Position numbers and translations under genes: made by a program
The notes under the pieces: generated by a model
What the model saw: the letters and a program-made list of their open reading frames with translations, nothing else
What the model was told of the DNA's origin: nothing
Databases searched by the model: none
Shown here: positions 5,169-14,506 of the stretch, piece by piece
Position numbering within the stretch: the first letter of the stretch is position 1
How the letters are laid out: every line of letters begins with the position of its first letter
DNA from: a virus
IMG/VR virus record: IMGVR_UViG_3300042521_002927
Span: 1-23,609 of that record
Length of the DNA: 23,609 bases
Strand: one strand, 5' to 3'

Positions 5169-5220
5169 GCCGCTACGCGAGCGGCAGGTGTCAAATCACT
5201 CCGCTTCGCTCACGGAGCGG
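5169..5220 (-). promoter_or_regulatory. TTTGACA box with two hairpins at gene junction
   Basis: Reading the minus strand, the stop of the cysteine-rich gene (5210) lies in a CCGCT/AGCGG hairpin (5201-5205 with 5216-5220). Next comes TTTGACA (5195-5189), then a GCCGCT/AGCGGC hairpin (5169-5185), then immediately the ATG at 5168. No Shine-Dalgarno is visible. The 12-mer gccgctacgcga at 5169-5180 recurs exactly in the hairpin at 14105-14116. The role is unknown: translation control, RNA processing or a dispersed palindromic element are all possible. Confidence 0.5.
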
Positions 5221-5623
5221 GAGGGAGCGGCACAGCCTCCCACTTGCCTATCGGGCAGCGCTCGGTGGCCATGCGGAGCTTTGCCCAGGTCGAGCATTTG
5301 CAAATCTGGCAGCGGCCGGTGGAGTTGAGCGCCTGCGCGTCCCACTCCGGGCATGCGCGGCAGGTGGCTTCGCGGGCGGCGAGGATGTCCGGCGGGGTGG
5401 GAGCAAAGCCGCTGGCAGTCCAGTTGACGAGGGATTTGCCGAGGCTCGCCGCTTGTTGCGGGAGGGTTGGAGGATTGGCTTTGACCTGATCGGCGTGCTC
5501 GGGCGTGTTCTCGCCCCGCTCCATGCAGCGGGCGCATGTGCCTTTACTGGGGCGTCCGCCGTGCAGGCCGAGGGCGCAGGTGTTTGCGTGAGCTGAGATC
5601 GGCGTGGCGTGGGGGCAGGTCAT
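5210..5623 (-). CDS. Cysteine-rich (zinc-knuckle-like) protein
   Basis: A 137-residue protein with ten cysteines in two clusters: C3, C16, C30, C33 and C88, C91, C105, C108, C110, C123. Key segments are GTCARCMERG, TCRACPEWD and RCQICKCSTWAKLRMATERC. The spaced CxxC pairs suggest two structural zinc sites. There is no signal peptide or catalytic motif. It starts as an ATGA overlap with the upstream gene, itself cysteine-rich, so the two are probably co-translated and may work together. Cysteine-rich modules of this kind occur next to fibre genes in some phages, but I cannot name a family; virion structural protein is an inference from position. Confidence 0.65.
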   Translation of the reverse strand: MTCPHATPISAHANTCALGLHGGRPSKGTCARCMERGENTPEHADQVKANPPTLPQQAASLGKSLVNWTASGFAPTPPDILAAREATCRACPEWDAQALNSTGRCQICKCSTWAKLRMATERCPIGKWEAVPLPPAP

Positions 5624-6336
5624 GAGAATGTTATTTGCGATGATATTTCTCTTTTATATGAAAAAGTATTTTGAGGGGGAGCGTCGCTAGGACGCCATAC
5701 ATTGTAAACGGCTGCTAGAGTTTGAATGGAATGCGTGCCAAAGATATTTATTGGGAGGATTGGCCCTGTGATCCCAGTTCTATTAGCAATAAATATCTCG
5801 CCTCCGTCCTGTGAGTCGGCGGTGGCAACTCGTATTGAAAGCCAATACGCACATTCAGCAGTTTCATCCGGCTCCAGAAATTGCCTCCCTGGTATACCGT
5901 GATAAGCGTCGTCATAAGGGTTAGGAGGTTCTGTTATTTTTTTGAATTTCCCAATTACAACACTTCCGCTAACTGAATAACCAAAAAGTTCATGGCAGTT
6001 TTGCGGCCCAGATAAATATACACATAGCCAATCTTGAGCCGGAGTAGGAGATACAAGGCATTTTTCATTAAAAAAATTAAATTCGCATGCTGGAGAATCG
6101 ATGATTCCGCTAATAGAATTTGTCTCCCCATTGCATGAATTAGCCCCAAGAATAACCTGCCATGCAATACTGCTTGGAGGTTCAGCCAGAGGGGCTTCTT
6201 GCGGCAACGATCCAATTAAATCTGGACACCCGCCGCAAGGGCCGGGGTTGCAACACGCACACTCCACCGCGCGGAGGCCTTTGGGCGAGTCGGTCTTTAT
6301 CTTGATCTTGTTGTCGGAGGTGCGGCCCAGCGTCAT
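5620..6336 (-). CDS. Hypothetical virion protein with N-terminal CxCC...CxxC motif
   Basis: A 238-residue protein. After a basic N-terminus (MTLGRTSDNKIKIKTDSPKG) there is a compact cysteine cluster C26-x-C28-C29-x4-C34-x2-C37. The rest is mainly beta with aromatic residues (IAWQVILGANSCNGETNSIS, DWLCVYLSGPQNCHELFGYS). Further cysteines are scattered through the first two thirds. The last ~90 residues include ANRTGITGPILPINIFGTHS and VYNVWRPSDAPPQNTFSY. The DNA from about 5640 to 6200 is clearly more A/T-rich than the flanking fibre genes, suggesting a different origin. It may be a fibre-tip or receptor-binding protein with its metal site at the N-terminus; that is inference. No known family is recognised. 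Confidence 0.6.
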   Translation of the reverse strand: MTLGRTSDNKIKIKTDSPKGLRAVECACCNPGPCGGCPDLIGSLPQEAPLAEPPSSIAWQVILGANSCNGETNSISGIIDSPACEFNFFNEKCLVSPTPAQDWLCVYLSGPQNCHELFGYSVSGSVVIGKFKKITEPPNPYDDAYHGIPGRQFLEPDETAECAYWLSIRVATADSQDGGEIFIANRTGITGPILPINIFGTHSIQTLAAVYNVWRPSDAPPQNTFSYKREISSQITFS

Positions 6337-6381: not shown

Positions 6382-7167
6382 TCAGCATTCCTCGGTAGCG
6401 ATCCATTGCAGCGCGCCGTCCACCGCGCCGAGGACATGCGTGCCGGATGTGGGCGGAGCAGTAAAAGGCACCCACCCGCCGGACTGGGCGACGAGGAGTT
6501 GGCCGTCCACTACGCCTCGGCCAAAAGGCTCCCAAGTTTCGTCAGTTGCATTCCAGCGAAGTAGTTCGTTATTAATCGTGCCAGAGGGGCCGGGCACCCA
6601 GTTTTTAGCAATCGCATCCCACTTTAAGAGTTGGCCTGCTGCCGTTCCCGCGCCCTGCGACTCCCAGCCGTTGGTTGCGTCCCATTGCAGAAAGGCTCCC
6701 TCTGCGCTGCCGGAAAAAGGCACCCAGTTTTTACTAATCGCATTCCACTTTAAGAGTTGGCCTGCTGCCGTTCCCGCGCCCTGCGACTCCCAGCCGTTTA
6801 CGGCGTCCCATTGTGGGAATGCTCCCTCTGCGCTGCCGGAAAATCGAAGCCATTTTTTCGCAGAAGAATCCCAGCGCAAAAACTGACCTTTGAAATTTCC
6901 TTTTTCCAACGGTTCGGACCAAGACAAGTCGGCTTTTAGAAATAAACCTTCCGCTTCCTCCGGTGGGTTGGGAATCTTGAGCCTGCGCGCGCTATGACCA
7001 CCCGCGCCAGTTGTTTGATCAACAAGACCATCTGCGACAACCAATGATGCAAAAACAAAATTTTTATCTAAGTCGGTGCCGCGAATTTGGTATGGGTAGC
7101 CTCCGTTTGCCGGATTCCCACCAGATTTGGCGGCTTGCTCAAAGGAGACTGGAGGGTCGCTCGTCAT
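6382..7167 (-). CDS. Tail fibre/tip protein with ~21-residue Trp repeats
   Basis: A 261-residue protein. Residues ~1-75 form an N-terminal domain. Residues ~100-245 are six to seven copies of a 21-22 residue bead of the form GQLLKWNAxxKxWVP: GQFLRWDSSAKKWLRFSGS, GAFPQWDAVNGWESQGAGT, GQLLKWNAISKNWVPFSGS, and so on. Similar 'GqvLtWngt.WvP' beads are frequent in phage fibre shafts. Two neighbouring double-beads are nearly identical at DNA level with a 126-base period (about 6595-6720 and 6721-6846). The start is an ATGA overlap with the upstream Ig-type gene (7164-7167). The protein ends in a short ALQWIATEEC tail. It is probably a fibre shaft or tail-tip decoration; copy number may vary between relatives. 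Confidence 0.7.
   Translation of the reverse strand: MTSDPPVSFEQAAKSGGNPANGGYPYQIRGTDLDKNFVFASLVVADGLVDQTTGAGGHSARRLKIPNPPEEAEGLFLKADLSWSEPLEKGNFKGQFLRWDSSAKKWLRFSGSAEGAFPQWDAVNGWESQGAGTAAGQLLKWNAISKNWVPFSGSAEGAFLQWDATNGWESQGAGTAAGQLLKWDAIAKNWVPGPSGTINNELLRWNATDETWEPFGRGVVDGQLLVAQSGGWVPFTAPPTSGTHVLGAVDGALQWIATEEC
6595..6846 (-). repeat. 126-bp tandem duplication inside fibre gene
   Basis: Copy one starts at 6595 and copy two at 6721, both beginning cacccagttttta. They share long exact stretches, for example from ctttaagagttggcctgctg onwards for about 40 bases. The period is exactly 42 codons, so the reading frame is kept and two 21-residue beads are added per copy. Confidence 0.75.
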
Positions 7168-12223: not shown

Positions 12224-13039
12224 TTACGCGGCCTCCTGAAGTTTGAGTTGGCGCTTCTTGAGGATGGTCTCCATTTGTCGTTTCATTTTTTGAGCGACGA
12301 TGGCCATGCCGTTGAGTTGCTCGATCGTGGTCAGAACCTTGTCTGCATATTTGCAGGTGTTGGTGAGAACTACGGTTGGCGCAAAAACATTTCCCGTGCG
12401 GTCTTCGACTTTGCCCAAATTATAATTACTCAAATGCCGCGTGACCCAGCCAGGGATGCGGCTAGTCATAGAACCGGAAATGACTTTCTTGAGCTGATTC
12501 GCGCAAGCTGCCCAGCCTGACTTGGCCAAGCCGGACTTGGCCATTTGAGACTTCACATAGTCATCCAGCGTGCCGCCTGGAACGAAGTATTTGTCGATGA
12601 ACTTCCAGCGCCCGATGTCGCGTGTTCTGCTGCCAGCACTAGACATCGTCCCGTTTTGAAATGCGCCTTTGTGGATTTGTCTCAATGTTGAGGCTGTGGC
12701 ATCTGTAAGGAAATGAGCTTTGTCTGTGCCGTAAACGGTGCCGTCTTTTTTCACAAAGAGCCGGACATTTCCGGTGGAGTAATGCTCGGCATTTGCAGCC
12801 ATGAACCCTGTCAGCGATGCAAAGATGCCGTATCGTTTCTTGCCTCCAAGAAGGTCGCGCGCGATGGCCTTTTCACCCACCTGCTGGTCATTGCCAAAAG
12901 GCTGAGTGCGGCGTGCAAATTCGACGCAGAGAAGCCGAGCATTCAGATGGACCGCATCCGGGATCGTCTTTTCCAGGATTGTGGCGTAGTCCTTCATGAT
13001 CTGCTCGAATTTCAGGTTCTCGAATTTGAATTTAGCCAT
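12224..13039 (-). CDS. Unknown structural protein between chaperone and tape measure
   Basis: A 271-residue, Lys-rich protein beginning MAKFKFENLKFEQIMKDYAT. Landmarks are a helical N-terminus with LNARLLCVEFARRTQPFGND, then GEKAIARDLLGGKKRYGIFA, then a middle part with GRWKFIDKYFVPGGTLDDYV. Two segments are repeat-like (AKSGLAKSGW). The C-terminus is basic and helical (KMKRQMETILKKRQLKLQEA). No membrane segment is visible. Its ATG lies inside the final codons of the frameshifted chaperone extension (stop at 13034-13032), so translation is coupled. Phages normally place the tape measure directly after the chaperone, so an extra gene here is unusual. It could be a neck/tail-completion (HK97 gp10-type) or minor tail protein, but I cannot show it. 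AAAATAAAAA precedes the start. Confidence 0.65.
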   Translation of the reverse strand: MAKFKFENLKFEQIMKDYATILEKTIPDAVHLNARLLCVEFARRTQPFGNDQQVGEKAIARDLLGGKKRYGIFASLTGFMAANAEHYSTGNVRLFVKKDGTVYGTDKAHFLTDATASTLRQIHKGAFQNGTMSSAGSRTRDIGRWKFIDKYFVPGGTLDDYVKSQMAKSGLAKSGWAACANQLKKVISGSMTSRIPGWVTRHLSNYNLGKVEDRTGNVFAPTVVLTNTCKYADKVLTTIEQLNGMAIVAQKMKRQMETILKKRQLKLQEAA

Positions 13040-13663
13040 TTTTTATTTTCTCAAGGGCAGCGTCTAATTCGGCCACGGAGTCAAAAACGGACTGCGAGTT
13101 GTTTCGCGCCCAGTATTTTTTCTGTCCATTTGCCCAGGCGTCGGCGTGTAGGAGTTGCAAGCCTGCGGAGAATGGAAGTTCCTCGAGGATTTCGCGGAAG
13201 CCCCAGCCGGTGATCTTGGCAAGTCGGTAGACATAGCCTGCGAGCCAGTTGGGGCCATTTAGTTTCCCGCTGAATTTCCCTGCGAGTGGGTGGAAGCAGA
13301 CATGTAAAGCTCGAAGGCTTCATCCATCGCTTTGGAGAGCGTCTGCATATCATCGCGGTGCAGGATGTTTTTTTCGATCCACTGATCCACGGTAATCATG
13401 AAGGCGTCGTTATCGTTCACCACGCTGCGGACCTTTGGAATAGGCTCGGAGTGAAGGAACATGAAGGCAGCGCATTTCCAGATGAGGTCGCGGCCTTCGC
13501 CAAAGAATTTGTTGCGCTGCATCCAGGAGAGGGTGAGCGCGGAGATCGGGCGGAGTTCGCGGCCGGCGACCTGCTTGGGGCCATCCTCCATGCCTTGGAT
13601 GCGGAGGATTTCGTCGTCCGTGGTGAGTTCGTCTGTGTCTGTGTTTTTGGTTTTTTGTTTCAT
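13032..13663 (-). CDS. Tail assembly chaperone, -1 frameshift fusion product (gpGT-like)
   Basis: The 134-residue upstream frame (13663-13259) ends ...GNSAGN-stop. Its last codons are GCG GGA AAC TAA, containing the slippery heptamer GGGAAAC (13268-13262), phased as G GGA AAC. A -1 slip reads on as CTA AAT GGC and opens a 76-residue extension ending at a TAA at 13034-13032. The extension has no start codon of its own but reads like real protein (GPNWLAGYVYRLAKITGWGF, QLLHADAWANGQKKYWARNN). The fusion would be 210 residues. In lambda, gpG/gpGT are made the same way (GGGAAAG) and chaperone the tape measure. Just downstream, GGCCCC and GGGGC stretches about 45 bases apart could pair as a stimulatory structure. 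The position, heptamer and phase together make this convincing. Confidence 0.85.
13259..13663 (-). CDS. Tail assembly chaperone, short form (gpG-like)
   Basis: A 134-residue product of normal termination at 13259. I chose the ATG at 13663 (MKQKTKNTDTDELTTDDEIL), which overlaps the upstream stop as ATGA; a longer in-frame start at 13747 would lie deep inside the upstream gene. It is acidic at the N-terminus, then has a helical core (RPISALTLSWMQRNKFFGEG, LIWKCAAFMFLHSEPI) and a Ser/Gly/Asn-rich end where the frameshift site lies. By analogy with lambda gpG it should coat the tape measure during tail assembly in excess over the fusion form. It is probably not part of the finished virion. Confidence 0.8.
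   Translation of the reverse strand: MKQKTKNTDTDELTTDDEILRIQGMEDGPKQVAGRELRPISALTLSWMQRNKFFGEGRDLIWKCAAFMFLHSEPIPKVRSVVNDNDAFMITVDQWIEKNILHRDDMQTLSKAMDEAFELYMSASTHSQGNSAGN
13262..13268 (-). promoter_or_regulatory. Programmed -1 frameshift slippery site GGGAAAC
   Basis: The minus strand reads GGGAAAC in the X-XXY-YYZ phase, directly before the 0-frame TAA (13261-13259). The -1 frame downstream is open for 76 codons and has protein-like composition, whereas the two other frames there do not look coding. Confidence 0.85.
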
Positions 13664-14067
13664 AGAAATTTGGCGAAGCGTTTCTTGTCCTCGTCGGTGG
13701 CGTGCTCGGAGATGGCGATGGTCTTGCCGTTGCGCTCGATCACGCACATGCGCGGCGTGCGCTTCACGACGCCCACCAGCTCGTCGCGGTTCATCAATGC
13801 GGCGCGCATGTAGGCCACCGGGTGCTCGGGGTTTTTCTCACAAAAGTCATCGCCTTCGACGGTCATCCATCGGTTCACCTGATCGGCAGTCTGGCCGGTG
13901 GTGGGATGCAAAGCGTGAAACCAGAAGACCGTGCTTTCGTTGCCATTCTGGCGAGCTACTCGGGTCACTGGAGCAGCGTCGTTTTCAAAATTAAAACCAA
14001 GCGCCGTAAGCACTGACGCGACCTTGAGGTTCTGCGTCGAAAAAAGTTGGAGTATCTGTTTGCTCAT
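13660..14067 (-). CDS. Tail-module protein of unknown function
   Basis: A 135-residue protein. I chose the ATG at 14067 (MSKQILQLFSTQNLKVASVL); an in-frame GTG at 14085 would start inside a hairpin. It contains FWFHALHPTTGQTADQVNRW, AYMRAALMNRDELVGVVKR and IERNGKTIAISEHATDEDKK. No membrane segment or enzyme motif is visible. It lies between the tail tube gene and the assembly chaperone and is coupled to the latter by an ATGA overlap (13660-13663). That is the position where some phages encode an extra tail or chaperone-associated protein. The role is unknown. Confidence 0.65.
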   Translation of the reverse strand: MSKQILQLFSTQNLKVASVLTALGFNFENDAAPVTRVARQNGNESTVFWFHALHPTTGQTADQVNRWMTVEGDDFCEKNPEHPVAYMRAALMNRDELVGVVKRTPRMCVIERNGKTIAISEHATDEDKKRFAKFL

Positions 14068-14074
14068 TATTTCT

Positions 14075-14126
14075 GGCCGGTTCACCCGGTGGGCCTGCCG
14101 GGGAGCCGCTACGCGACTGCCCCGGC
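14075..14126 (-). repeat. Pair of GC-rich intergenic hairpins
   Basis: The gap between the tail tube gene and the next gene contains a long hairpin with arms GCCGGGG (14097-14103) and CCCCGGC (14120-14126), extended inside by CGC/GCG. A second hairpin has GGCC arms at 14075-14078 and 14092-14095 and CAC/GTG inside. There is no U-tract, so these are not ordinary terminators. They could stabilise or separate the abundant tail tube mRNA. The 12-mer gccgctacgcga (14105-14116) recurs at 5169-5180. Confidence 0.6.
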
Positions 14127-14140
14127 GAGGAGGTGAGGAA

Positions 14141-14506
14141 TTAGGCAGCGGTCATCGTGGTGCCGTAGTGGCGAGCGGTGAGGCTCATCGACTCGAACTG
14201 CTCGGCAGCAAAGGTCGTGTCCAATCCAGTTACGATCGTGGTTCCGCCGGAGGGGAGACCTGCGCCGGAGATCGAGAGCGTGCCGCCCACGGTGGCCGCG
14301 AAGGTGCCGGTGCGCATGCCTTCAATCGAAATTTCGGTGACTGGTTCCGATGCGGCAACGGCAACCACACTGCCCTGGTCATCCTTGACCTCAGAGAGCG
14401 ATGTGGACTCACTTTTGGTGAGGCCGGTTACGATGAGGCCAGACACATCGGGAGTGCCGAAGGTGGCCGAGGAAACTGCGGATGAGCGGTAAATTGATGC
14501 TGCCAT
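14141..14506 (-). CDS. Major tail tube protein (probable)
   Basis: A 121-residue, Ser/Thr/Gly/Ala-rich, beta-strand-rich protein (begins MAASIYRSSAVSSATFGTPD). It contains VTEISIEGMRTGTFAATVGG, IVTGLDTTFAAEQFESMSLT and ends ARHYGTTMTAA. The order terminator protein, then tube, then chaperone is typical of siphophages, and the size and composition suit a small tail tube subunit. It is flanked on both sides by hairpins (14520-14535 and 14075-14126), as expected for a highly expressed gene with its own mRNA stability needs. The leader is A/C-rich (AACCCAAACACCT). The assignment rests mostly on position and composition. Confidence 0.62.
   Translation of the reverse strand: MAASIYRSSAVSSATFGTPDVSGLIVTGLTKSESTSLSEVKDDQGSVVAVAASEPVTEISIEGMRTGTFAATVGGTLSISGAGLPSGGTTIVTGLDTTFAAEQFESMSLTARHYGTTMTAA

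Follow-up and report, generated by a model that had tools for sequence, protein, structure and literature searches.

The question raised by this locus is how ribosomes could pass from a short open reading frame (ORF) into the protein-like sequence behind its stop codon. The locus lies on the minus strand of IMG/VR virus record IMGVR_UViG_3300042521_002927, analyzed here over positions 1 to 23,609 (23,609 nucleotides [nt]), a stretch that we call the window. A 134-amino-acid (aa) ORF ends there in GCG GGA AAC TAA. An original prediction, made from the letters of the window, held that ribosomes slip by -1 on the GGGAAAC directly before this stop and thereby reach the hidden second half of a tail assembly chaperone. 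We verified the slippery phase of the heptamer and the positions of both the heptamer and the stop (Table 1). The -1 frame, entered at 13262, reads CTA AAT GGC CCC AAC TGG ... and is open for 76 codons; the predicted extension residues past the slip junction are LNGPNWLAGYVYR, and the predicted long product has 210 aa. We consider programmed -1 ribosomal frameshifting on GGGAAAC, which would yield a pair of products resembling lambda gpG/gpGT, to be the best explanation of this locus, with a probability of roughly 93%. The comparative evidence consists of the heptamer, a coding -1 frame, a downstream stem and an invariant stop, from which we infer slippage and its efficiency.

A single heptamer is weak evidence, given that the window holds 117 heptamers of the X XXY YYZ type on both strands (2.5 per kilobase), only 3 of them with a stop next in any frame. 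Relatives were collected from IMG/VR and from Verrucomicrobiota metagenome-assembled genomes (MAGs) by scans with the extension, the upstream half and divergent sub-alignments, plus a genome scan, and these gave 168 distinct 300-nt junctions, part of them from closely related contigs. A heptamer abuts the 0-frame stop in every one of the 168. The exact X XXY YYZ form is present in 153 (GGGAAAC in 95, GGGAAAG in 26, AAAAAAC in 17 and CCCAAAC in 15), and the remaining 15 carry the weaker GGGGGAG; the stop itself is TAA in 95 junctions, TAG in 65 and TGA in 8. When loci were picked by the upstream half only (n = 80, of which 1 runs off its contig), the same arrangement was found in 79/79 of the others, and it is therefore not a selection effect. 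A quick tree from which the junction codons were left out requires at least 10 heptamer changes. The three X bases switch together whenever they switch, and the codon preceding the heptamer, which encodes any of eight residues (A, S, L, P, G, T, I, R), always has a third base equal to the first X. Alignment of relatives, suggested as a check along with the prediction, thus found the heptamer and an open -1 frame in every relative. The alternative of faulty sequencing or assembly, or of a pseudogene in decay, is refuted by the same arrangement in 168 distinct junctions from many metagenomes, by the conserved upstream half and by purifying selection on the extension, and we give it practically no weight. 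A false match from a Synechococcus MAG (L060) was dropped. Some close relatives alternate between GGGAAAC and CCCAAAC (L213-L223, L233 and L260 against L212 and L255), and TCG GGA AAC and AGC CCA AAC in close relatives differ at five bases with serine retained.

The -1 frame behaves as protein-coding sequence. Between relatives, the ratio of nonsynonymous to synonymous change (dN/dS) over extension codons 2 to 70 is 0.03 to 0.21 in this frame versus about 1 or higher in the other two, which is the synonymous-biased change anticipated for a protein-like extension, and the frame is open in 123/123 unique sequences. No credible start-to-stop gene competes for the region, as had been claimed: the ATG at 13258 is kept in only 11/123 unique relatives, and its wrong-frame ORF is open in half of them. 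The wrong-frame ORFs at 13064-13258 and 13081-13353 were rejected as genes, given that those frames lack purifying selection and that few relatives share the ATG behind the stop. The 76-codon stretch could instead be a separate gene in the extension frame, translated through re-initiation at a start coupled to termination at the upstream stop with no frameshift, and the position of that stop where the downstream frame begins, together with the Shine-Dalgarno (SD)-like motifs upstream in many relatives, would suit such a gene. However, ATG, GTG and TTG are all absent from the extension frame in 32/130 loci and the first start codon is scattered in the rest, while an upstream ATG or GTG in this frame is absent from 104/130 loci. 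This lack of a conserved start codon speaks against a separate gene, as does a conserved domain that begins at codons 4 to 6 after the slip, and re-initiation leaves the conservation of the heptamer across GGG, AAA and CCC unexplained. We regard re-initiation as very improbable. Frameshifting into a conserved extension would also account for a region that, in many viral contigs, standard gene prediction would leave empty or assign to an ORF in the wrong frame.

Downstream of the heptamer, RNAalifold found a 12-bp helix that begins 5 nt past it, and counting of pairs upheld this helix. A mean of 11.1 of the 12 pairs form, versus 4.9 to 7.3 when the arms are slid, and 92.7% of cells are paired across 81 sequences (at most 60.6% when slid). 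Stem cells changed on both sides number 44 versus 19.9 in shuffles, and 0/500 shuffles reached as high a count. At pair +6/+61, a change of codon 3 from AGC to TCC (Ser) is coupled with a change of codon 21 from GGC to GGG (Gly); both are synonymous, and therefore only the RNA pair changes. Pair +7/+60 flips from C-G to G-C, and pair +12/+55 goes from A-U to G-C. The Pro4 codon is CCC in 83/84 sequences, whereas all four proline codons occur at Pro30. Stability of the stem region exceeded that of synonymous-codon nulls in 21/21 sequences (mean z of -2.1). The GGCCCC and GGGGC stretches that had been proposed as a possible stimulator are accordingly the arms of a conserved, covarying stem, which we consider a candidate frameshift stimulator, its spacing lying within the 5 to 9 nt expected of such a structure; stimulation itself is predicted. 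Neither a pseudoknot nor a second conserved helix was found between -30 and +120, and an Rfam search returned a chance snoRNA match only.

The fusion could also arise from transcriptional slippage, in which RNA polymerase adds or drops a base. The run of six A in the AAAAAAC lineages and a run of ten A in one distant locus (L290) would allow this, but GGGAAAC, GGGAAAG and CCCAAAC hold runs of three only, the codon phase is invariably X XXY YYZ, and the stem starts 5 nt downstream, as for ribosomal stimulators. We therefore judge transcriptional slippage to be extremely improbable.

Upstream of the heptamer, SD-like motifs are present in 70% of unique sequences versus 25% in codon shuffles and are restricted to certain lineages; their commonest spacing is 9 nt, and the window itself has AGGGA as its sole such motif. 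Stimulatory SD sequences for -1 frameshifting lie 9 to 14 nt upstream (PMC5009743), and a stimulatory role for these motifs is suggestive. Another heptamer of the window, GGGAAAT, is likewise in phase; it precedes GGGAAAC by 12 nt, and a slip on it may also lead into the extension frame. GGGAAAT is confined to near relatives of the window (L201 and L202 only).

The adjacent stop is a feature in its own right. In chaperone genes, the published average distance from slip site to stop is 26 nt (SEA-PHAGES) or 36 nt (Xu set) (PMC10885494). An abutting stop has a precedent, given that in Caulobacter phage phiCbK the heptamer AAAAAAC is followed directly by TAA. Across the 168 junctions, the stop is kept while its identity and its neighboring residue (Leu or Val) vary, and this residue switches with the last heptamer base. 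The switching between Leu and Val with the stop always kept suggests that the stop is selected for itself. It is possible, though we hold the idea only tentatively and rather doubt it, that the stop takes part in the mechanism as a -1 shifty stop, with competition between release factor and slippage at a stop in the A site setting the product ratio.

Under programmed frameshifting, most ribosomes would decode GGA AAC and be released at the stop next to it, giving the 134-aa product. A minority would be held by the 12-bp stem 5 nt downstream, with possible help, in many relatives, from an SD-like AAGG lying within the gene some 9 nt ahead of the site, and would slip back by one base (GGA AAC to GGG AAA) and translate 76 more codons into the 210-aa product. 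By analogy with the biology of lambda gpG/gpGT reviewed in PMC5009743, the short form would bind and coat the tape measure protein in many copies, and the long form, present in few copies, would recruit tail tube subunits.

Table 1. Features of the frameshift locus and its neighborhood in the window
Feature	Position	Strand	Basis or remark
0-frame ORF, short gpG-like product	13259..13663	-	ATG 13663, TAA 13261-13259; 134 aa plus stop; 38-sequence family alignment
Slippery heptamer GGGAAAC (G GGA AAC), X XXY YYZ phase	13262..13268	-	Sequence; conserved in 168/168 distinct junctions
0-frame stop TAA, distance 0 from heptamer	13259..13261	-	Stop at same place in all relatives (TAA/TAG/TGA)
-1 frame extension, C-terminal part of predicted gpGT-like product	13032..13262	-	76 codons plus stop TAA 13034-13032; dN/dS
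Second in-phase heptamer GGGAAAT	13274..13280	-	Sequence
Stem 5' arm GGCCCCAACTGG, +5 to +16 after heptamer	13245..13256	-	RNAalifold, pair counts
Stem 3' arm CCGGCTGGGGCT, +51 to +62 after heptamer, loop 34 nt	13199..13210	-	RNAalifold, pair counts
141-aa gene, part of conserved order	13660..14085	-	Gene order in relatives
271-aa gene between extension and tape measure gene	12224..13039	-	Start overlaps extension end
Tail tape measure protein, 870 aa	9608..12220	-	Pfam PF10145 3e-8; PHROG tape-measure families 1.7e-12

The function that the original prediction assigned to the pair, that of a tail assembly chaperone, is likely; the label draws on the gene order, the frameshift and one distant homologue. 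The conserved order is a small tail-tube candidate (14141-14506 in the window), the 141-aa gene, the 134-aa ORF, the -1 extension, a gene of 271 or 213 aa and the tape measure protein, so that the coding region for the short and extended products lies a single gene ahead of the tape measure gene. The end of the extension overlaps the start of that intervening gene (ATG 13039-13037). Distant homologues came from a phylum-wide profile search around a relative in a Verrucomicrobiota MAG, in which 5/388 genomes matched. At one of these loci, L289, a homologous extension domain (hhalign 95%, E of 3e-8) lies behind CCCAAAC, where 15 nt separate heptamer and stop, and a tape measure gene (PF20155, 4e-19) follows directly with no gene between. 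Chaperone genes classically occupy this slot, next to the tape measure gene. The distant Verrucomicrobiota loci L288 (minus strand), L289 and L290 have the same type of extension domain behind GGGAAAC, CCCAAAC or a run of ten A, the last being the slip site of L290, with the 0-frame stop 15 to 18 nt away or further; L288, found in the phylum search, is the weakest of them and a weak lead only.

Profile and fold searches gave this label no support. Pfam and PHROGs scans gave no credible match for either half or for any member of the alignments, including to the chaperone profiles against which a hidden Markov model search had been proposed, and hhalign comparison with lambda G and T and with phiCbK gp93/94 was negative. 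There was likewise no match in tblastn and blastn searches against cultured phages, in a PDB sequence search or, at E below 0.001, in a Foldseek search with AlphaFold models of both halves (pLDDT, the predicted local distance difference test, of 79 for the upstream half and 71 for the extension). Known tail chaperones are themselves highly divergent in sequence (PMC5009743).

Several points weigh against our interpretation. Neither sequence nor fold ties the pair to a known chaperone family, and an extra gene separates the putative chaperone from the tape measure gene, unlike in lambda. Both would agree with a real frameshift that makes two forms of some other tail-operon protein. Against that alternative, a frameshifted gene just ahead of the tape measure gene is typically that of the chaperone, and the homologous extension of L289 stands immediately before its PF20155 gene; we consider a nonchaperone protein unlikely. 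Bearing on the frameshift itself, one clade uses the imperfect heptamer GGGGGAG, most stem pairs sit in codons conserved for the protein so that covariation rests on three pairs, and the SD-like matches are missing from many lineages and could be driven by amino acid content. The frameshift product is, moreover, predicted from the comparison of sequences.

Comparison with known systems places the proposed chaperone frameshift among established ones. Chaperone genes of Caulobacter phages (PMC3556154) and haloarchaeal viruses (PMC5009743) are already known to use GGGAAAC and AAAAAAC as slip sites. The pre-tape-measure chaperone gp93/gp94 of phiCbK (JX100813; PMC3556154) is expressed by a -1 frameshift on AAAAAAC with an abutting TAA and sits just before the tape measure gene, as is proposed here, but no gene intervenes, its extension has 156 codons versus 76, its sequence has no detectable similarity to ours, and a different fold is predicted after its heptamer. 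Caulobacter phage Colossus uses GGGAAAC, as the window does (PMC3556154). Lambda G/GT, too, encodes a short product and a longer one made by -1 extension, ahead of the tape measure gene, and its heptamer, confirmed as GGGAAAG in line with the original comparison, is also used by a clade of the family of the window; the lambda stop, however, lies 15 nt beyond the heptamer versus 0 here, T has 144 codons as annotated versus 76, and there is no sequence similarity. The haloarchaeal HCTV-1, -2 and -5 g-t sites, compared by heptamers alone, have the same three heptamers that occur in the family of the window (PMC5009743), although these are archaeal viruses, unlike the phage of the window. The Escherichia coli dnaX cassette has a comparable heptamer and downstream stem, and an upstream SD to which the SD-like motifs of many relatives may correspond, but dnaX is not a tail gene, its heptamer is A AAA AAG and the shift shortens the product in E. 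coli.

The kind of frameshift is thus already known, and the novelty lies in the family, in how broad it is and in an adjacent stop that is never lost. A likely chaperone family absent from Pfam and PHROGs would join the known -1 frameshift systems, from phages of a phylum that has been little sampled. The heptamers that occur naturally at this one position, next to an invariant stop and ahead of a covarying stem, offer a good test set for trade-offs among slippery sequence, structure and termination.

The host of these phages is probably a member of the Verrucomicrobiota, with near relatives lying within MAGs of this phylum (L058 and L059 from the genome scan, L287 from the phylum search), although binning of phage contigs can be wrong. 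The place of the intervening gene is taken by either of two cassettes, of 271 or 213 aa, that appear to differ, even where the chaperones are 96% identical; examples are window 12224-13039, L012:3228-3869, L014:3219-3860 and L058:5226-5870. The 141-aa protein on the other side has no Pfam or PHROG match; a 139-aa protein in the distant L289 (664-1083) resembles it and occupies the same place. Elsewhere in the window, positions 6382-7167 encode a predicted repeat-unit protein (GQLLKWNA.SKNWVPFSGSAEGAFLQWDA.NGWESQG) that is probably tail associated. Past the tail genes, positions 5210-6336 hold two cysteine-rich ORFs (CACCNPGPCGGCP, CRACPEW..CQICKC), and L058 and L059 have similar cysteine clusters downstream of their tape measure genes.
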